A stretch of 64,000 nt of DNA from Bdellovibrio sp. (lineage in GTDB: Bacteria > Bdellovibrionota > Bdellovibrionia > Bdellovibrionales > Bdellovibrionaceae), in contig JANYDD010000020.1 in NCBI GenBank assembly GCA_025359945.1, positions 1-64,000 on the forward strand, given 5' to 3'. This document shows, in pieces, positions 29,289 through 37,354 of the stretch. Position 1 is the stretch's first letter, and every line of letters begins with the position of its first letter. Both the position numbers and the translations under genes were made by a program. The notes beneath the pieces were generated by a model that did not search any database, had not been told where the DNA came from, and saw only the letters and a program-made list of their open reading frames with translations.

Positions 29289-29306
29289 GCGGAAAGGTAC
29301 CTTTTG

Positions 29307-29952
29307 CTAGATTGGGTCTGAGTTTTTTATATAGTCAACGCCCTTTGGGCCTTCCGGTTGTGCTGGGTTAGCTTCGCTGTACCAAATTGTTTCAATCGCA
29401 TCATTGGTCAGAATCAAAATAACTTTGATCATCATCCCGTTTGCATTTTTAGGTCGTCGCATTTGGCCTACAAAAACTGAATCTTGGGATTTTATTCCGG
29501 TCCTCAAGAACAATTTGCTTTCGGCGGTGACAAATGTGGCTGGCTAGGCCAAACGATTGACGAACTTAAATCGGACCATTCCGTTACTTAAGATTCCAAC
29601 GATTTCGAGGATGTTTCTGTTGGATCCGAAGTAGCCTCGCTGACCGACGCTGACTTGGTGGCCATTCATCATCATTTTTCGATCATTCAGCGAACGAAAC
29701 AATTTGGTTTCTGCGATTTTAAAACTGTTACCTTTCAACGGCCCAGAAAGGAATCTGACCAAGGATTCATCGCCAGACGTCCAGAGGATCTCAGGCTAAA
29801 GTGGCTTCTTCGCCCTCGACATAAGCTTTTGGTAGGCCAGATTCATATTTGTATTTTCCGTTACAGGCGCTCGCAGAATGTGCCTTGAAACCCAAGATTG
29901 AAAAAAAACCAAAAGCTAAAGTCAGAAAACCAAAACGGTTCAATGATCTCAA
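29307..29952 (-). pseudogene. Secreted repeat protein, frameshifted and with internal stop
   Basis: TTG 29952, with a run of six G 5 nt upstream, starts a signal peptide (FGFLTLAFGFFSILGF, cleavage near SASA). The frame stops at 29791, but the next frame over continues without a break from about 29795 (PEILWTSGDESLVRFLSG) to a TAG at 29544, and then in the same frame to 29307. The two later parts each carry a KLF...VGQ...I..I unit of about 45 residues, so the intact product was a secreted protein of about 215 residues with internal repeats. One frameshift and one nonsense mutation separate it from a complete gene. The family is not recognised. Confidence 0.65.
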
Positions 29953-30031
29953 TGCTACCCCCCTTTTTTTTTGACGTCTTTAGCTTTGATACAGGCGACC
30001 CCCATTTAAATCAAGGGTCGCCGAAAAATTC

Positions 30032-30309
30032 TTAAGGACAGTTTTTTCGGAGTTGGTCGATTTGGACTTGGGTCATGTATTTACTGGAGTAGTCGGTTGC
30101 AGAATTCCATTGAGCCACTAGCGCTTTTAATTTTCCTGTGCGATTTGCAAAAGTGGGATTGTCGCATTTTGACCAAATTGGCTCAAGGGCAAAAACATCC
30201 GCGAAGAGTGAGGCTCTCATCGGCGAGTTTGTATAACCCGGAATCGCATTTACATTCGCACTTAGTTCGCCCGCGTAAACTAGGTAACGTCGTGCTAAGG
30301 GATTAGCGT
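30032..30309 (-). pseudogene. Probable 3' remnant of an unknown gene
   Basis: An ATG at 30220 opens a 62-codon frame, but the same frame is protein-like further upstream (LARRYLVYAGELSANVN, then AIPGYTNSPMRASLFADVFA) and stays open to 30340, with no start codon there. The sense upstream sequence collides with the end of the DUF3253 gene at about 30300. The best reading is the C-terminal 90 or so residues of a larger protein truncated by a rearrangement. Two Cys near the end (KCDNPTF, RKNCP) suggest a secreted disulfide protein. No family is recognised. Confidence 0.4.
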
Positions 30310-30651
30310 CAGTCGAATGGGTCCCTTGGCTGTCGACGGATCAACCGCCACCGAATTTTGCAAAATCTTAATTTTTCCTTGGGCCACCAAACGCCTGGCC
30401 GCTGATCGCACTTTTTCCATGACTATCTTGTTTTGCTTATCTGAGTCCTGAAGCAATTCAGATGGAAAAATCGTTTTGTTAGCGCCACGGAGTTTAAGTA
30501 ATTCTAGAATTTTTTCTTCAAATAAATCTTTAGGCCTATTTTTGCGACAGCGATCACTGCAGTATTTTATTTCTTCCCAATTTTTGAGCCATTTCTTTCG
30601 GGGCTCAATAATTCTTCCGCAGCTGGAACAGGTTTTCTTGGTCACTTCCAA
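30295..30651 (-). CDS. DUF2256/DUF3253 zinc-finger and winged-helix-like protein
   Basis: A 118-residue protein of two known small domains. The N-terminus is a zinc finger (CSSCGRIIEPRKKWLKNW, then KYCSDRC; DUF2256-like). The C-terminus is DUF3253-like (KILELLKLRGANKTIFPSE, AARRLVAQGKIKI, VDPSTAKGPIRL), predicted to form a winged helix. The family is widespread but uncharacterised, and often lies near photolyase or DUF2805 genes. Its start overlaps the DUF2805 gene by 10 bp, so the two are co-translated. Confidence 0.85.
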   Translation of the reverse strand: MEVTKKTCSSCGRIIEPRKKWLKNWEEIKYCSDRCRKNRPKDLFEEKILELLKLRGANKTIFPSELLQDSDKQNKIVMEKVRSAARRLVAQGKIKILQNSVAVDPSTAKGPIRLTLIP

Positions 30652-30947
30652 CCCTTGGTGACACCGTCAACGGATTGGCGGGTGGATTTAAACCTTGTCT
30701 TTTTAAATCCTCGTTTCGTTTCATGCTTCAATTGACCCTGATTATGGGCCCGCTTTCGCCATCTTGTGAAAGCTGATGCAGACAACTGCGTGCGCATAAA
30801 CCGAACAAACTCATTTTCACTAAGGCCAAACTGATGCTGAATGGCTTCAAACGTTGTCCGATCTTCCCACCCCATTCGGACCATGCGATCCAGATCGTCA
30901 GCAGTAAACTGCGCCAACTTTTTCTTTAGGTCTTGAGAAACGCCCAC
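30642..30947 (-). CDS. DUF2805 / TIGR03643 family protein
   Basis: A 101-residue basic protein. The conserved core is DDLDRMVRMGWEDRTTFEAI, followed by QFGLSENEFVRFMR and SASAFTRWRKRA, a helix-turn-helix-like arrangement typical of the DUF2805/TIGR03643 family. The tail is Lys/Arg-rich and probably disordered. The family is known to occur next to DUF2256/DUF3253 proteins, as here. The function is unknown; nucleic-acid binding is an inference from its charge and fold. Confidence 0.85.
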   Translation of the reverse strand: MGVSQDLKKKLAQFTADDLDRMVRMGWEDRTTFEAIQHQFGLSENEFVRFMRTQLSASAFTRWRKRAHNQGQLKHETKRGFKKTRFKSTRQSVDGVTKGWK

Positions 30948-30959
30948 AGTTGTTATTCC

Positions 30960-31643
30960 TTACTTGGTCGTTGGAATTGCCCAATCCATTTCAACAAATT
31001 GAAAATGCAATCGCAAATCATCTTTCACATTTGAAACTAAGCCGCCGGCAAGCTTGGGCCGCTTCAACATAAACTCCGTGAATGTGGTCGCGATGGTCCC
31101 AGACGCAGATCTATGGCCTGGCTGTCCGTCAATAGTGACAAAAGTTTCAAAGCTAAAATCTTGCCCTGCCATTTTCAAATTTAATTTAATCATTCCTGAC
31201 TTTTCTTTGAGAATTTTTTCCCACGCGCCTGTCGGAATGGGCAAAGTTTCAATCTCTAAATTGGGTTGAGTTTCTGCCTTTAAAATTTTTTGAACATCTA
31301 CGTCGCGTTCCGTTTCACCACTATCAAAGTCTTTGATGGGAACTAGGGCTCTCACGATTCGACCAGTTTTGCTTAGGCTCGAGGAAACTTGAACATTGCA
31401 ATTCATCCCCACGGGTTCTGAACTGCTGACCAGTAAAAGAGTTTTTCGGGCTTGCCAAGCTACGCAGGATTTGTCAGCCCGCCAAGAAATACTTTCTGCC
31501 CTCGCTTGATTGGGTAGAAATCCTAAGATCACAAAACATAGAAAAAAGACGGCACCAATTTTACTTTCAATGTTACCTTCAATTTTACTTTCTAAAAAAA
31601 GTTCGCATTTAAAAGCATTGATATTTTTATTATTTAAGTTCAA
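30960..31643 (-). CDS. YceI-like secreted protein
   Basis: TTG 31643 is the preferred start, with AGGAG 7 nt upstream; the open frame begins at 31682. A signal segment (GAVFFLCFVILGFLPNQARA) precedes a mature domain of about 175 residues. This resembles YceI-like lipocalin-type barrels, which bind isoprenoid quinones or other long amphipathic lipids: VPIKDFDSGETERDVDVQKI followed by a hydrophobic beta pattern and a late RPKLAGG strand. The N-terminal part repeats ESKIEGNIESKI, from a short tandem DNA repeat. It lies just downstream of the type III PKS operon, so it may bind the product lipid. Confidence 0.55.
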   Translation of the reverse strand: MNLNNKNINAFKCELFLESKIEGNIESKIGAVFFLCFVILGFLPNQARAESISWRADKSCVAWQARKTLLLVSSSEPVGMNCNVQVSSSLSKTGRIVRALVPIKDFDSGETERDVDVQKILKAETQPNLEIETLPIPTGAWEKILKEKSGMIKLNLKMAGQDFSFETFVTIDGQPGHRSASGTIATTFTEFMLKRPKLAGGLVSNVKDDLRLHFQFVEMDWAIPTTK

Positions 31644-31724
31644 TTCCAGTCTCCTAATTATTCTTGCAAAAGACTTTCTCAAGTAAGATGTCGTGTCAAT
31701 GAAGATGAAAAAACGCCCTTGTCC

Positions 31725-32450
31725 TCATTCCGTTGGTTTCGCCTTTGCTCCACTTTTTTGGAATTCTATGGAGTATTTAAACGCCCATCGCCACTGAATT
31801 TTTACCATACATGTATCCACTTTCGCGGCCAGCAAATATTTTTGCCAATCGGATTTTCGAAAACTGCGTTTGACCGAAACGACCGAATCGTTTTGAACAA
31901 CGGAATGAAAACCAAGCGCCCAAGTCAATCCGCGCAAAAATTCTCGGCTAAGGGCGTGTCGCTGCAGATCCTCAAAATACCAACCCCAATTTGCAGTGTC
32001 CGACGCACCTTGGATCAGCTCGACGATTTGCAGATCGGAAAGGTGGTGAGCGAACAATGTTGACACATACACATCTGGCTTTTCATGAGGACTTGAAAAA
32101 AACTGCAAAGCGTCCCCGCAAATAATTTCAACATTTTCAAATTTTAATTTTTCTTTCGCTAGCGCCACAGACTTGGGATTTAAATCGATACCTAGCCAAC
32201 GGATTTTCAATTTGCGATTTTGGCTCCATGAAATCAACTGAAAAAGCAAATCACCTTGGCCGCACCCTAAATCCATAACGCTCAATTCTGGACCCAAACT
32301 TTGCGCAGCACTTTCTAAAAAACCAAAAAGCGGTGTTAAACTTCCAAACTTAGAATTTAACCAAGTGACTTGCTTCAGAATGGCTGCCATCTCTGATTCA
32401 TCCAGCTTTTCAGTTTCCATTTTTTCAATTTCGGTAGATCGGATTTTCAT
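31725..32450 (-). CDS. SAM-dependent methyltransferase of the type III PKS operon
   Basis: A class I methyltransferase of 241 residues. Motif I is VMDLGCGQGDLL (about 58-69), then IDLNPKSVALAKEKL (about 88), and FAHHLSDLQIVEL (about 133) in the position of motif post-II. It starts 3 bp after the polyketide synthase stop codon. The natural inference is O- or C-methylation of the polyketide phenol or pyrone, as SrsB does in Streptomyces griseus. The substrate is not proven. The C-terminus has Trp/Lys-rich segments that could contact membrane. Confidence 0.85.
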   Translation of the reverse strand: MKIRSTEIEKMETEKLDESEMAAILKQVTWLNSKFGSLTPLFGFLESAAQSLGPELSVMDLGCGQGDLLFQLISWSQNRKLKIRWLGIDLNPKSVALAKEKLKFENVEIICGDALQFFSSPHEKPDVYVSTLFAHHLSDLQIVELIQGASDTANWGWYFEDLQRHALSREFLRGLTWALGFHSVVQNDSVVSVKRSFRKSDWQKYLLAAKVDTCMVKIQWRWAFKYSIEFQKSGAKAKPTE

Positions 32451-32453
32451 TTA

Positions 32454-33527
32454 TTAAACCCCAGCTTTAAAAAACTGCATTGATTCCATAGTAAATCCGG
32501 GGCCAAAAGACAGCGCGGCGCCCGTTCCAAATAAATCAGTTCGTTGCAAAATTTCACCAAGCACAAACAAAATAGTCGCCGAGGACATATTGCCGAATTC
32601 GCGCAGGATTTTTCGCGAAGGTTCCATTTGAGATTCATCTAAACCAAGGCCTATAGCTACCGCATCCAGGATGGCGCGCCCGCCGGGATGGATTGCGGCC
32701 AGTGCCGGCTTTTGCTGGCTCAGTGTTGTTGACGAAACCATTTGCGGCAGTTTCTGCGCTAGTACCTTTGGAACATCCATAGATAAAAACATTTCAAATG
32801 CTTGGTCGCGAATTTTCCAGGTGATCAGTTCGGCGGCGTCGGGATCGACGTGACACATAAATTGATCCATTCGTATGCCGTTTGCTTCAGATGAAACCAC
32901 GGCGGCAGCAGCACCATCTGCAAAAAGTAAAAATCCCATAAGGTCTTCAAGGTTTTTGGACTCGCGCAAATGCAAAGTGCAAAGCTCTAAGGAAACCACT
33001 AAGACTTTTGCACTGGATGTACTTCGCACGATATGATGGGCCAATTTTAGCGCGTTGACGGCGGCATAACATCCCATAAAAAAGACGTTCGTGCGCTCAA
33101 GCTCTGGCTTCATTTTCCATTTTTTCTGAATCAATAAATCTAATCCGGGCGCCATCATTCCTGTGCAATTAGTGACAATCAAATGTGTGAATTCATCGGC
33201 AGCATGTTTCGAAAACAAAGGCAGCAATAACTTGTCAGCTAAAATCATCGAATGCTGTTCGAAGTATTTCATGCGATCTCCAAGCGATGGAAATTGTCCA
33301 AAGCGGTAAAATCCATCTTGATCCAAACTTGTTTTGGTTCCCAAGGGATTCATAAATGAATAGCGATGCTGAATTGCGGATTTTTTTGCCAACCTTTGAA
33401 ATAGCAATTGTTGTCGGGGATCCAATTGGGACTTGGCATACTGAACAAAAGCGCTGTGAACGTCATGGGGTGGAACCGCCGTAAAAATTTGATTTATAAA
33501 AGCTTCGCCGCCAGCCTTTAAAGTCAT
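32454..33527 (-). CDS. Type III polyketide synthase
   Basis: A chalcone-synthase-superfamily homodimeric ketosynthase that condenses an acyl starter with malonyl-CoA to make alkylresorcinols or alkylpyrones. The catalytic triad is intact: Cys153 (FFMGCYAAVNAL), His280 (AIHPGGRAILDAV) and Asn313 (REFGNMSSATI). The 357 residues are normal length. TNCTGMMAPGLD (about 119-130) and LSFGPGF near the end are also family-typical. Starter preference cannot be read directly; bacterial relatives in such clusters use long fatty acyl chains. The start overlaps the PLD-like gene by 4 bp and the methyltransferase follows after 3 bp. Confidence 0.95.
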   Translation of the reverse strand: MTLKAGGEAFINQIFTAVPPHDVHSAFVQYAKSQLDPRQQLLFQRLAKKSAIQHRYSFMNPLGTKTSLDQDGFYRFGQFPSLGDRMKYFEQHSMILADKLLLPLFSKHAADEFTHLIVTNCTGMMAPGLDLLIQKKWKMKPELERTNVFFMGCYAAVNALKLAHHIVRSTSSAKVLVVSLELCTLHLRESKNLEDLMGFLLFADGAAAAVVSSEANGIRMDQFMCHVDPDAAELITWKIRDQAFEMFLSMDVPKVLAQKLPQMVSSTTLSQQKPALAAIHPGGRAILDAVAIGLGLDESQMEPSRKILREFGNMSSATILFVLGEILQRTDLFGTGAALSFGPGFTMESMQFFKAGV

Positions 33528-35032
33528 AACTGAATCCGCGCCGAAGACCGGCTTAAAATATTTTTAGTTTCTTTGGTTTTTTGCGCACCAAGTTTTGTTT
33601 TTAAATAGTCTTCCGCATTTTCAATTTCGTCTTCCGTCCACTGGTGCCAGCTTGCAAAGTGTTCGCTTTTGAGCATTTTTTGAACTGGCAACCATGTGTC
33701 TTTAGAGCCCGCGTCCAAGACGACAAAAGAATTAGAATCCAATGTAAACGAACGGAGATCCCAATTAGCATTTCCAATCCAAATAAGGTCGTCGTCGACC
33801 AACGTCAATTTGGCGTGGAAGCACTCGCCGGCGGGACGATCCAAAGTTTTAAACACCAGACCTCCTATCTGTTGTTTCCAGTCTTTCATATTCAAATAGG
33901 TATAGATAGCGACTAGTGGAACATCCGAAGATTCTGTGGAGTTTGTCAGGATCTCGACGTGAACGCCTTTCCGGACAGCGGATCGCAATCCCGAAAGGAC
34001 TTTGTTGGATGGAGCAAAATAAGGTGTGTAAATAGAAATTTTTTTTCTGGCCGAAGAAATCAAATCTAAAGTACTCTTTTCAAAATATTCCGCGCTGTTT
34101 TTGCGCGGACCGGACGAAACAAAAATCAGTGCTTTTGTTTTTTTCCCAGAAGATTGTAGGGTCGTTTTAAATTTAAGGTCAATGTCCGAATACGAAAGCG
34201 AGCCCTCGGGTTGTGTAAAAAAATTATCCGCCCAACCGCGCCCGCCGATCAAGTAAGTCTGCCCCTGCGGATTTTCAGCAATTAATAATTTATCATGAAA
34301 TCGATAAGACAAATCGCCTAGATTTGATTTCAATTTCCACAGACTAAATAACCCAGTTTCGTCGATTACTTTTTTCATAACCAAACCCAAGATCACTTCT
34401 GGAGTTTTTAAAATTGCTAGGTCGTCGGGCAGAGCCCCTTGCAACCTAGTCCCTTCCAATTCTTTAGAAACGGCTAAAGGGTTGGCGTCGATGACTGCGT
34501 CGATCAGCTGAATGGGCGACTCTACACCGTAAGTATTCCTTACAAAATCTTCAAAACTTTTCGACGGGGGATTTTCAACCGTTAAATGGAAATTTTCAAA
34601 AGATTTCAGATCGTCGAAAATGTGCAGTGCTGAAACTGAAAACATAAAATCCAACTGAAGATCAACGGCCACGCCTCGTTTCAAACTTTTCAAAAGATGA
34701 TCATGTATGTTTTTAGTCATCTTGCCTTTACGAACATAAAACTGTCGAATCTTTAATTTTTCTCTGGGCCCCGCCGCATCGATCAATTCAAGTAAAGTTT
34801 TTTCAGACGATTCTCCGGTGGTGATCCATGTTAAATCAGAAGCAGTGATTTCCTGGGCCTGAGGGAAGCTTTGCTGAAAGCGAGAAAACGCATTGCCAGA
34901 ATCGGATTTTGATTTTTTTGTTTCGCAAGAAATGACTAAGGTGACGAGTGAAAGAAAAAAACAAAGTCTGACTAAAATAAAATGTAAAAAATCTCTTTTC
35001 GCGAAAACCGAAGCCAATGGTTGATTGAGCAA
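33524..35032 (-). CDS. Phospholipase D-like lipoprotein
   Basis: A lipoprotein of about 500 residues with an N-terminal hydrophobic segment and lipobox LVISC (about residue 36), so it is membrane-anchored outside the cytoplasm. Two PLD/cardiolipin-synthase HKD regions are present: YRFHDKLLIAENPQG with IGGRGWAD (about 245-270) and FHAKLTLVDDDLIWIGNANWD (second motif, about 415-435). Together they form one active site for phosphodiester transfer or hydrolysis. It is the first gene of the operon with the polyketide synthase, implying extracytoplasmic lipid processing. The start is assigned at the frame end; internal starts nearer the signal are possible. Confidence 0.85.
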   Translation of the reverse strand: MLNQPLASVFAKRDFLHFILVRLCFFLSLVTLVISCETKKSKSDSGNAFSRFQQSFPQAQEITASDLTWITTGESSEKTLLELIDAAGPREKLKIRQFYVRKGKMTKNIHDHLLKSLKRGVAVDLQLDFMFSVSALHIFDDLKSFENFHLTVENPPSKSFEDFVRNTYGVESPIQLIDAVIDANPLAVSKELEGTRLQGALPDDLAILKTPEVILGLVMKKVIDETGLFSLWKLKSNLGDLSYRFHDKLLIAENPQGQTYLIGGRGWADNFFTQPEGSLSYSDIDLKFKTTLQSSGKKTKALIFVSSGPRKNSAEYFEKSTLDLISSARKKISIYTPYFAPSNKVLSGLRSAVRKGVHVEILTNSTESSDVPLVAIYTYLNMKDWKQQIGGLVFKTLDRPAGECFHAKLTLVDDDLIWIGNANWDLRSFTLDSNSFVVLDAGSKDTWLPVQKMLKSEHFASWHQWTEDEIENAEDYLKTKLGAQKTKETKNILSRSSARIQL

Positions 35033-35143
35033 ATTAAATCCTCATAGTTCGTAACTTCTAGGGAACGTTTTTTTTGAGGGGGCCCGTCTTTGCTATGATC
35101 TTGGTTTTCGCAGGTGACTTTCTTCCCACTCACTTCAATAATG

Positions 35144-35172
35144 TAGTTGATCACAATTCTCGAGATCAACTA
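35144..35172. promoter_or_regulatory. 9-bp inverted repeat overlapping monooxygenase start
   Basis: TAGTTGATC (35144-35152) and GATCAACTA (35164-35172) are perfect complements with an 11-bp spacer. The last base of the right arm is the first base of the ATG of the monooxygenase gene. It lies in the 139-bp region between the divergent PLD/PKS operon and that gene. It could be an operator or an RNA hairpin masking the start. No normal ribosome binding site is visible in front of this ATG. Confidence 0.6.
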
Positions 35173-36341
35173 TGAAAAAAAAGATAGCCATCGTTGGCGC
35201 CGGAATATCTGGATTAACTTTAGCCAAAGCCCTTCTACTACAGAATCATGAGGTGACATTGTTCGAGCAACATTTCCAGGTGGTTGGAGCGGGATCTGGG
35301 TTAACCTTATGGCCTAACGCAACGTATGTTCTAGAGAAAATTGGCGCGCTAGAATTTTGTTTGCAAACGGCAAGGCCGCTGAACGAGTTGCACGTGCTAG
35401 ATCATTTGGGCAGGCTGCTGATGTTGATCCCAACCGAAAAGTTTTCTAGCCTTGCGATAGCTATACATCGACGCGATTTGCACAACGCGCTCTCTATGGG
35501 GCTTCCAAGAGAAATGATCAAAACTTCGCAAGCTGTCACTGCTGTTCGCGAAACAGACCGGGGTGTGGAATTAATTTGCGGCTCTAGTCAGTTTGGGCCA
35601 TATGATTTGGTCGTTGGCGCTGATGGCTTGCATTCTATTGTGCGAAGTTTTGTGAACGGAACTTCTGCGAAAAAAAAAGAATTACTAAGATACAAAGGGT
35701 ATTTGATTTGGCGAGGAATCGCCGACGGGGATTTTCTAAAGCCTGGTCAGTTTTTAGAAATATGGGGGGCAGGGCATCGCTTTGGATTTCTTCCCATTGC
35801 GGAAGGTCGCGTCTGTTGGTATGCCACGGCAAATCTTGCCAGTGATTGGCCAGGATTAAAAAACGCGGCAATGCAGCGTGAATTTTTAGGCCAAGTTTTT
35901 TCAGGATGGACCAGTCCAATTTCTGAACTTTTGCGCCGAACGCCAGATGCGGATATTATTTGCAATCGCGCGTTTGACCATCGCCCTGCTAGATTGTGGT
36001 CCCGGGGAAAAGTAGTTTTGATCGGCGACGCTGTTCACCCGATCGCCCCTAATTTAGGGCAGGGCAGTTGCTTAGGCATCGAAGACGCCATGGTTTTATC
36101 CCTAGTTTTAGACTTACCAACTAGCACGGAAAATTCTTTAAGAATTTTTGAGAAGCTTAGGCGCGGGCGCGTGAATTCTATTAGCCGGAGCTCGAATTTT
36201 ATTGGTCTGGTGGGGCAAATCCAAAACCCGATACTATCAAGAATCAGAAACGAAATCGCATCAGTCATTCCGGGTGAATGGTTTACACTTTCCAGCCGCA
36301 GAATTCATGCCTACCAAGCTGATCAGCAGGTGATTAAATAA
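35172..36341 (+). CDS. FAD-dependent monooxygenase
   Basis: A class A flavin hydroxylase of 389 residues in the UbiH/zeaxanthin-epoxidase group. FAD-binding motifs are GAGISGLT (about 9-16), VVGADGLHSIVR (about 148-159, the DG motif) and VVLIGDAVHPIAPNLGQGSC (about 278-297, the GD motif). It is divergent from the PKS operon. By analogy with SrsC it may hydroxylate the polyketide-derived phenol to a hydroquinone that oxidises to a quinone. The C-terminal 50 residues are amphipathic and may touch the membrane. The start has no clear Shine-Dalgarno site but is fixed by the GxGxxG position. Confidence 0.9.
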   Translation: MKKKIAIVGAGISGLTLAKALLLQNHEVTLFEQHFQVVGAGSGLTLWPNATYVLEKIGALEFCLQTARPLNELHVLDHLGRLLMLIPTEKFSSLAIAIHRRDLHNALSMGLPREMIKTSQAVTAVRETDRGVELICGSSQFGPYDLVVGADGLHSIVRSFVNGTSAKKKELLRYKGYLIWRGIADGDFLKPGQFLEIWGAGHRFGFLPIAEGRVCWYATANLASDWPGLKNAAMQREFLGQVFSGWTSPISELLRRTPDADIICNRAFDHRPARLWSRGKVVLIGDAVHPIAPNLGQGSCLGIEDAMVLSLVLDLPTSTENSLRIFEKLRRGRVNSISRSSNFIGLVGQIQNPILSRIRNEIASVIPGEWFTLSSRRIHAYQADQQVIK

Positions 36342-36353
36342 AAAATGGGTGAA

Positions 36354-36815
36354 TTATTTTTCGGCGGAAAGAAAAGTCTTTAATCCATTTTTTGCAATCT
36401 CTGTTGCGTCTGAAAAATTTAAAGAAGGTTTTTGAATACAAGTGGTCAAGGTCACATCAATAAAATTTTTCGCACGCAATTCTTTACTATCGCCGGAGAA
36501 CCATTCAGAAATTTTCTGATCCGAATTTTGTGAAAGCATCTTTTCAAAATAATCTTCCCGAAACTTTTCGCGGATCGTCTCATACCGAATTTTAGCACGG
36601 TCCAAGGCAAGAGTTTCGCGATTTTTCAAACGAACTTTATTCGCCAAAGAGTGAATGGTTTGGGAAAGCTCTAAAACCAGGGCGCATTGACTCTGTATTT
36701 CGTCGCCCATTACGGCCAAGGGCTCGCGCTCAAGAGCTTGCGACAGTTGCCCTGACGCCGTGAAAGCGAAAAGTAACACCGCCGGCATCAAAATGTTTAT
36801 TCCAGATAGGGTCAT
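36354..36815 (-). CDS. Secreted hypothetical protein
   Basis: A 153-residue protein with a signal peptide (INILMPAVLLFAFTASG, probable cleavage before LSQA). The mature chain is mostly helical and charged, with two Cys (QCALV near 44 and TCIQK near 131) likely in a disulfide. I do not recognise the family. It is convergent with the monooxygenase gene, separated by 12 bp. Confidence 0.65.
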   Translation of the reverse strand: MTLSGINILMPAVLLFAFTASGQLSQALEREPLAVMGDEIQSQCALVLELSQTIHSLANKVRLKNRETLALDRAKIRYETIREKFREDYFEKMLSQNSDQKISEWFSGDSKELRAKNFIDVTLTTCIQKPSLNFSDATEIAKNGLKTFLSAEK

Positions 36816-36965
36816 AGTTTTCTCCAGTGAACTACTGTCGATTATCGTTGCAACAAAATATCTCGCGCTTTAACTTTGTCGGGATCGAATTGAAAGGTCT
36901 CTACAATTTCGAACTTGCCGATACTTAAAAGCTTCTATTAAAAGTTTTTTCGCACAAAACATGCA

Positions 36966-36987
36966 GGGGACTTATTCCCCAATTTTT
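36966..36987. terminator. Weak hairpin with T-rich tail
   Basis: GGGGA (36966-36970) and TCCCC (36976-36980) form a 5-bp stem with a 5-nt loop, followed by AATTTTT. It lies in the 252-bp gap 36816-37067, which otherwise holds nothing I recognise apart from a possible promoter for the small gene at 37068. Confidence 0.3.
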
Positions 36988-37067
36988 AGGTCTATCAATC
37001 TTTTGTGATTTACTATCAAAACCTGAGCCATTCCTAGACCGAATATTTTTGCCATAAGGTTCAAGGA

Positions 37068-37253
37068 GTGTCGAAAAAAAATAAATGGTACCCAAGGGGG
37101 CTATTCGACGAACTTTTTGACACGTTTAAAGAAACTATGACCCGATTCGACCGTCGATTCGTTGGGCCAAAGACCTTAAAAAAAAACCAAAGTCCTTTCT
37201 TACTAAAATTCCACCCTGCGACAGGTCCAGATCGCAATTTTCTAAAAATTTAA
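37068..37253 (+). CDS. Possible small basic protein
   Basis: A 61-codon frame starting with GTG, with AAGGT 7 nt and AAGGAG immediately upstream. The product is rich in Lys, Arg and Phe (for example RGLFDELFDTFKETMTRFDRRF) and could form an amphipathic helix. No family is recognised. The good binding site and the isolated position in front of lpd are the only support. Confidence 0.35.
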   Translation: MSKKNKWYPRGLFDELFDTFKETMTRFDRRFVGPKTLKKNQSPFLLKFHPATGPDRNFLKI

Positions 37254-37354
37254 AAGTTTTTGATAGTCAGAAAGTGGGCGCTTAAAAAACTAAAAAATGC
37301 GCCGTCAGATGTCAAAGTTTAAAGCCGTCTGTGAAATCAATATATGTAAATTGA

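Follow-up and report, generated by a model that had tools for sequence, protein, structure and literature searches.

The window, by which we mean the whole stretch of 64,000 nucleotides from Bdellovibrio sp. that was analysed, carries an operon that appears, with moderate confidence on our part, to make and handle a phenolic lipid (a methylated alkylresorcinol or a related quinone), with a secreted YceI-like lipocalin as a partner. It can be regarded as a hid-like phenolic-lipid operon of new composition, in which the biosynthetic core is ordinary and the envelope partners are the notable part. To our knowledge, it has not been established how phenolic lipids or polyketide quinones reach the outer envelope of Gram-negative bacteria, and we know of no agreed natural ligand for the YceI lipocalins, despite their wide distribution. 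The association of type III polyketide synthase (PKS), MMPL transporter and YceI genes described below, which includes a fusion of YceI with an isoprenylcysteine carboxyl methyltransferase (ICMT), joins these two questions and makes them testable.

Gene layout and insertion between sucB and lpd

All five genes assigned to this locus in the preliminary description were confirmed, with their coordinates, as open reading frames. On the reverse strand, a gene for a lipoprotein resembling PLD/cardiolipin synthases (33524–35032) is followed by the type III PKS gene (32454–33527), a class I SAM-dependent methyltransferase (MT) gene (31725–32450) and the gene of the YceI-like protein (30960–31682), and a FAD monooxygenase (FMO) is encoded divergently on the forward strand (35172–36341). 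The PLD and PKS genes share 4 bp in an ATGA overlap, the MT start lies 3 bp past the PKS stop, precisely the spacing that had been claimed, and the YceI-like gene begins 42 bp after the MT gene on the same strand. The operon probably extends further into two genes of the reverse strand, coding for a DUF2805/TIGR03643 protein (30642–30947), 12 bp away from the YceI-like gene, and a DUF2256+DUF3253 protein (30295–30651), whose gene overlaps the former. The 139 bp between the divergent units (35033–35171) possibly constitute a control region shared by the operon and the FMO gene; a promoter scan of the locus yielded predicted promoters no better than those of shuffled sequence. A 61% homolog of the DUF2805/TIGR03643 protein was also observed near another type III PKS (L238, 11131–11397), the two loci belonging to different PKS clades.

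The position of the PLD-type lipoprotein at the head of the operon was confirmed by gene order and by its lipobox, LVISC. This protein matched PLDc_2 and presented two HKD-like motifs, the first being HxK(x)4E, with Glu in place of Asp, and the second an intact HxK(x)4D. No PLD ortholog was found beside the PKS gene in 60 relatives. In a Rhodospirillales MAG (L118, 2930–8474), genes for a UbiE-like methyltransferase, a PKS and an MT are followed by a PLD-type lipoprotein gene, whose product is 23% identical to that of the window and represents only a distant echo of the PLD-PKS link. The idea of PLD as a recurrent PKS partner was dropped, this being a single distant case.

The operon is part of a block of 8 kb (29289–37296) inserted into the old sucA-sucB-lpd unit, since sucB and lpd were directly adjacent in 11 of the 12 relatives examined and are separated by 8 kb in the window. 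The exception among the relatives (G012, locus L233) carries another, different insertion of 5 kb at the same site. The GC content of the block and that of its flanks showed no clear difference, so that base composition gave no sign of a foreign origin. It could be argued that only the PKS and the MT form a pathway, the PLD, YceI-like, DUF and monooxygenase genes being unrelated passengers of the insertion. This agrees with the lack of any such partner linked to the PKS in its four nearest PKS relatives and with the fact that the YceI subfamily of the window differs from that of the PKS-linked copies. The same-strand arrangement, with its overlap of 4 bp and its gaps of 3 and 42 bp, argues against it, as does the YceI-PKS linkage observed elsewhere, which is far above chance, and we consider it rather unlikely.

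Active site and phylogeny of the type III PKS

The PKS presented both chalcone/stilbene synthase domains (Chal_sti_synt_N/C) above cut-off and a Cys-His-Asn triad, already described as intact and here located at C153, H280 and N313, all invariant in the alignment, which together identify it as a type III PKS. It is the one clear enzyme of this type in a genome of 2.74 Mb that is 96% complete. Alignment to the solved structures 3vs8 and 3vs9 placed W237 at the position of ArsB Trp281 and ArsC Gly284, which decides between resorcinol and pyrone products in Azotobacter; in fact, the ArsC G284W mutant (3vs9) moves its product to resorcinol (PMC6274091). Trp occupies this position in 84/84 hid-type enzymes, the members of the window's PKS clade, and in 25/26 ArsB/C-like and 9/9 PKS11-like enzymes, the corresponding residue being Tyr in THNS, Leu in PKS18 and Gly in CHS. 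Similarly, M246 corresponds to CHS Phe265, a position that holds Met in 83 of 84 members of the window's PKS clade, Cys in PKS18, and Phe in THNS and CHS; Met has also been reported there for relatives of HidC (PMC8086630).

A search with the single sequence gave no matches, and relatives of the PKS were found by an alignment-based search of contigs, which returned hundreds. The best 80 came from Alphaproteobacteria, Acidobacteria, Planctomycetota, delta-type bacteria and a few Gammaproteobacteria, and the nearest within the order were 46–49% identical. Trees were built with PKS11, PKS18, ArsC, THNS, DpgA, PhlD, plant CHS and a planctomycete enzyme from an operon of hid order as references, the support values being SH-aLRT from quick searches. 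The PKS of the window fell in a clade with 99% support that held only those relatives and none of the characterised enzymes of the reference set, and its product is therefore assigned by analogy. It grouped with none of RppA/THNS, DpgA, PhlD, PKS18 and CHS, a result that bears directly on the preliminary description, for which a placement with THN synthase would have spoken against a phenolic lipid. It was also located outside the PKS11-like clade, PKS11 serving as a stand-in for SrsA, and its 99% clade did not include the HidC-like enzyme L170, which stood in for HidC, the trees giving no firm branching order between the two.

On the basis of the resorcinol-type Trp and of a clade away from THNS, the enzyme probably makes an alkylresorcinol, as analogy with the characterised synthases suggests. 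The proposal that it would form alkylpyrones or a short-starter aromatic such as THN or DHPA draws on two similarities, namely its best NCBIfam model, DpgA, matched with 102 bits and far below the cut-off of 425, and its closest solved sequence, the pyrone synthase PKS18. Both enzymes were set apart from the PKS of the window in the trees, and W237 and M246 differ from the residues of PKS18 (Leu/Cys), THNS (Tyr/Phe) and CHS (Gly/Phe), so that this product class seems very unlikely.

Regarding the Azotobacter arsABCD system, the window shares the logic of a long-chain alkylresorcinol and the Trp of ArsB. However, its PKS lies outside the ArsB/C clade, which is the common one in Bdellovibrio-like relatives, and genes for fatty acid synthases like ArsA and ArsD are absent from its block. 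A link to resting cells, which had been offered as a speculation, found no support at the locus. In most species of a large Bdellovibrio-like genus (g6, represented by L013, L242–L244 and others), there is a type III PKS that is ArsB/C-like, has the resorcinol Trp and is encoded alone, with no MT, FAD or YceI genes nearby. A literature search for alkylresorcinols or PKS in Bdellovibrio returned nothing specific.

The PKS, methyltransferase and FAD enzyme among known systems

The joint presence of a PKS, an MT and a FAD enzyme is a stable trait of most relatives in the window's PKS clade. In the four nearest relatives the gene order was PKS, MT and FAD oxidoreductase, and among the best 80 loci of the clade an MT gene was present in 75 and a FAD oxidoreductase gene in 71; the order was rarely different, and all three genes occurred together in about 70. 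A copy on a Mesorhizobium plasmid is annotated with the same arrangement. The methyltransferases of these loci and that of a hid-order operon of Paludisphaera belong to the same PRK06202 family (this model scored 110 bits for the MT of the window, 145 for L044 and 232 for L170), and the FAD proteins of both groups belong to the geranylgeranyl-reductase superfamily. These shared families relate the cluster to operons of the hidABC kind, which have been shown to form alkylresorcinols (PMC10896814).

The trio of the window thus resembles hidABC, the hierridin genes, more closely than srsABC, as far as family assignments can indicate. With the hidABC operons of cyanobacteria and Planctomycetota (PMC8086630, PMC10896814) it shares a type III PKS and an MT that is of class I and belongs to PRK06202; the PKS of the Paludisphaera operon has the same W/M active-site signature, and the order PKS-MT-FAD (hidC>hidA>hidB) is known there too. 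Nevertheless, the PKS of the window is only 33% identical to the Paludisphaera enzyme and belongs to its own clade, and the operon differs from hidABC in the absence of a FAD protein of the geranylgeranyl-reductase superfamily, in the presence of another, divergent monooxygenase and in the addition of the PLD lipoprotein and the YceI-like protein.

The preliminary description had equated the locus with the srsABC set of Streptomyces griseus, and this was not borne out. The same three activities are found in principle in srsABC and in pkqABC of M. smegmatis and Streptomyces MNU77, and the resorcinol-type Trp is shared with them. However, SrsB is a membrane methyltransferase of the ICMT family (PMC6669644), and the MT of the window, a class I enzyme with matches to PF13649/PF13847 (Methyltransf_25/31), gave no ICMT match; this difference by itself separates the window from an srs set, to which a PKS outside the PKS11-like clade and a FAD enzyme that is divergent and of another subfamily can be added. 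The proposed phenolic-lipid pathway itself was supported by the resorcinol Trp, the dissimilarity to THNS and the conserved trio.

The divergent FAD monooxygenase was indeed present, with the predicted orientation and a FAD_binding_3 domain, but its subfamily (PRK06753/HpxO-like) is not that of the FAD enzyme of the trio elsewhere, and its relatives were not found beside PKS genes. No copy of the usual oxidoreductase of the geranylgeranyl-reductase superfamily was found in the genome, and the FMO is likely to act as a stand-in ring hydroxylase for it. In the proposed pathway, the PKS would load a long-chain acyl starter, extend it with three malonyl-CoA units and close the chain to an alkylresorcinol. 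Methylation by the MT would take place on the ring or on one of its hydroxyls, and hydroxylation of the ring by the FMO would give a methylated hydroquinone or a quinone-type lipid.

Another operon with which the window can be compared is that of 'Saltatorellus ferox' (PMC10896814), which likewise has genes for a PKS and for methyltransferases, together with one for a lipoprotein, of a kind left unspecified, and one for a lipid/isoprenoid-binding protein. Its PKS belongs to the methylmalonyl-CoA group and it has two methyltransferases, which distinguishes it from the window.

YceI lipocalins beside type III PKS genes

The protein encoded after the MT had been described as YceI-like, and its homologs favour this assignment, although no direct match to the Pfam family was obtained. 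It has a signal peptide, is predicted to be secreted and probably represents a divergent subfamily of the lipocalin-fold family. A Pfam scan assigned it to no family and missed YceI even at E=5, while three homologs (L191, L192 and L194, with 65–89 bits to the window protein) passed the cut-off of Pfam YceI (PF04264). An AlphaFold2 single-sequence model reached a pLDDT of 41, too poor for a structure search, and no solved structure matching the alignment was found.

In G054, a PKS gene of another clade is followed by genes for a FAD oxidoreductase and YceI, which prompted an examination of the surroundings of 58 type III PKS genes in the phylum, about 11 kb for each. In 23 of these neighbourhoods a YceI gene lay no more than about 5 kb from the PKS, in 21 of them on the PKS strand. 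Since genomes have about 3–4 YceI genes each (PF04264 in 291 genomes, among the matches listed), fewer than one of the 58 loci would be expected to have one. A binomial estimate gave <1e-19 even at 3% per locus, related genomes not being independent, and YceI was found in 0/11 control loci around sucB. By PKS clade, YceI accompanied 9/9 PKS11-like loci, 13/14 of a second clade and one BcsA-like locus, in addition to four loci of Acidobacteria and one of Azospirillum that belong to the window's own PKS clade, and it was found at none of the ArsB/C-like loci. The same neighbourhoods contained MMPL/RND transporters (19 loci), FAD oxidoreductases (25), ICMT (14) and UbiE-like methyltransferases (22), as well as LuxR-type regulators (18), almost always on the opposite strand. 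In the literature searched, no mention was found of YceI together with a type III PKS.

The PKS-linked YceI proteins of the phylum formed one clade (98%), apart from the window copy and from those of Acidobacteria. As the copies fall apart in the tree, distinct YceI subfamilies appear to have been recruited beside type III PKS genes more than once. Other known members of the window's subfamily were not located beside a PKS, and its own proximity to one could be a matter of chance (about 1%) or unrelated.

The presence of YceI, often with an exporter, beside type III PKS genes far above chance suggests that these lipids are moved into the envelope, and the recurrent linkage with MMPL exporters in the phylum supports the earlier idea of lipid handling outside the cytoplasm. 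The MMPL proteins matched HAE3 and HpnN-like transporters; a search for a dedicated MMPL exporter in the genome of the window found none, and the locus has the PLD lipoprotein instead. A coherent route from the cytoplasm to the outer envelope would result from a PKS producing an alkyl phenol or quinone, combined with an MMPL exporter and with a lipid-binding barrel in the periplasm. Ligands that have been found in YceI lipocalins are octaprenylphenol, octaprenyl phosphate and ubiquinone-8, and these proteins give protection from lipid peroxyl radicals (PMC9113575; PMC5350466). In the window, the secreted YceI-like lipocalin would bind the lipid in the periplasm and either shield it or carry it toward the outer membrane, and the PLD lipoprotein may adjust the phospholipids where the lipid inserts. 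A secreted protein of this family, putative in the window, is common to the window and to the BcnA-type systems (PMC9113575), and the window copy is distinguished by its location beside a type III PKS and by being, taken alone, below Pfam detection.

The capacity of BcnA to guard against lipid peroxyl radicals and to bind alpha-tocopherol (PMC9113575) raises the alternative that the lipid is an envelope antioxidant, a tocopherol-like phenol held by the lipocalin and quenching such radicals. Ring methylation and hydroxylation by the linked MT and FAD enzymes would fit this role, but no cytochrome b561, the partner found in BcnA-type systems, was observed in the cassette, and the locus gave no evidence of stress regulation; we regard this function as rather improbable.

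A polyketide quinone that serves respiration as an additional electron carrier, in the manner of pkqABC of M. smegmatis and Streptomyces, with YceI as a periplasmic quinone-binding accessory, seems slightly less probable still. PkQ operons do combine a PKS with the same Trp, a methyltransferase and an oxidoreductase (PMC9927152), sets of PKS11-like PKS, ICMT and FAD genes with YceI and MMPL exist in the phylum, and some loci have methyltransferases of the UbiE type, which act on quinols elsewhere. Nonetheless, neither the PKS nor the MT of the window is of the PKS11/ICMT type, and the export genes favour the envelope over a chain in the inner membrane.

Returning to the envelope phenolic lipid, a wider generalization can be offered tentatively, with somewhat less than even confidence. 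Throughout the phylum, and seemingly in Acidobacteria too, the phenolic lipids or quinones made by type III PKS would be methylated and hydroxylated inside the cell, exported by MMPL/HpnN-like RND transporters and received in the periplasm by YceI proteins. The window would then hold a separate version, put together independently, in which the YceI protein is of a subfamily of its own, the hydroxylase has been exchanged and a PLD lipoprotein is present. If this is true, such a delivery route gives the YceI proteins a defined biosynthetic ligand.

Several other loci of the phylum deserve mention. Nine of them (L250, L259, L261, L262, L269, L274, L279, L284 and L286) combine a PKS11-like PKS with ICMT, FAD and YceI genes, mostly with MMPL as well, and by their predicted gene families are true srs/pkq-like sets in the window's phylum. 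In L259 (5923–7044, genome G174), a single frame directly after the PKS11-like PKS gene encodes a fusion of an SrsB-type ICMT with YceI. A further seven (L265, L267, L277, L283, L285, L287 and L292) are PKS-MMPL-FAD-YceI loci, mostly with a divergent gene for a small membrane-anchored LuxR-type regulator, which possibly regulates phenolic-lipid synthesis. Finally, a YceI gene of the window's subfamily lies beside a DUF393 gene in L191/L239 (G056:C4), and DUF393 was also seen near the PKS locus L238.
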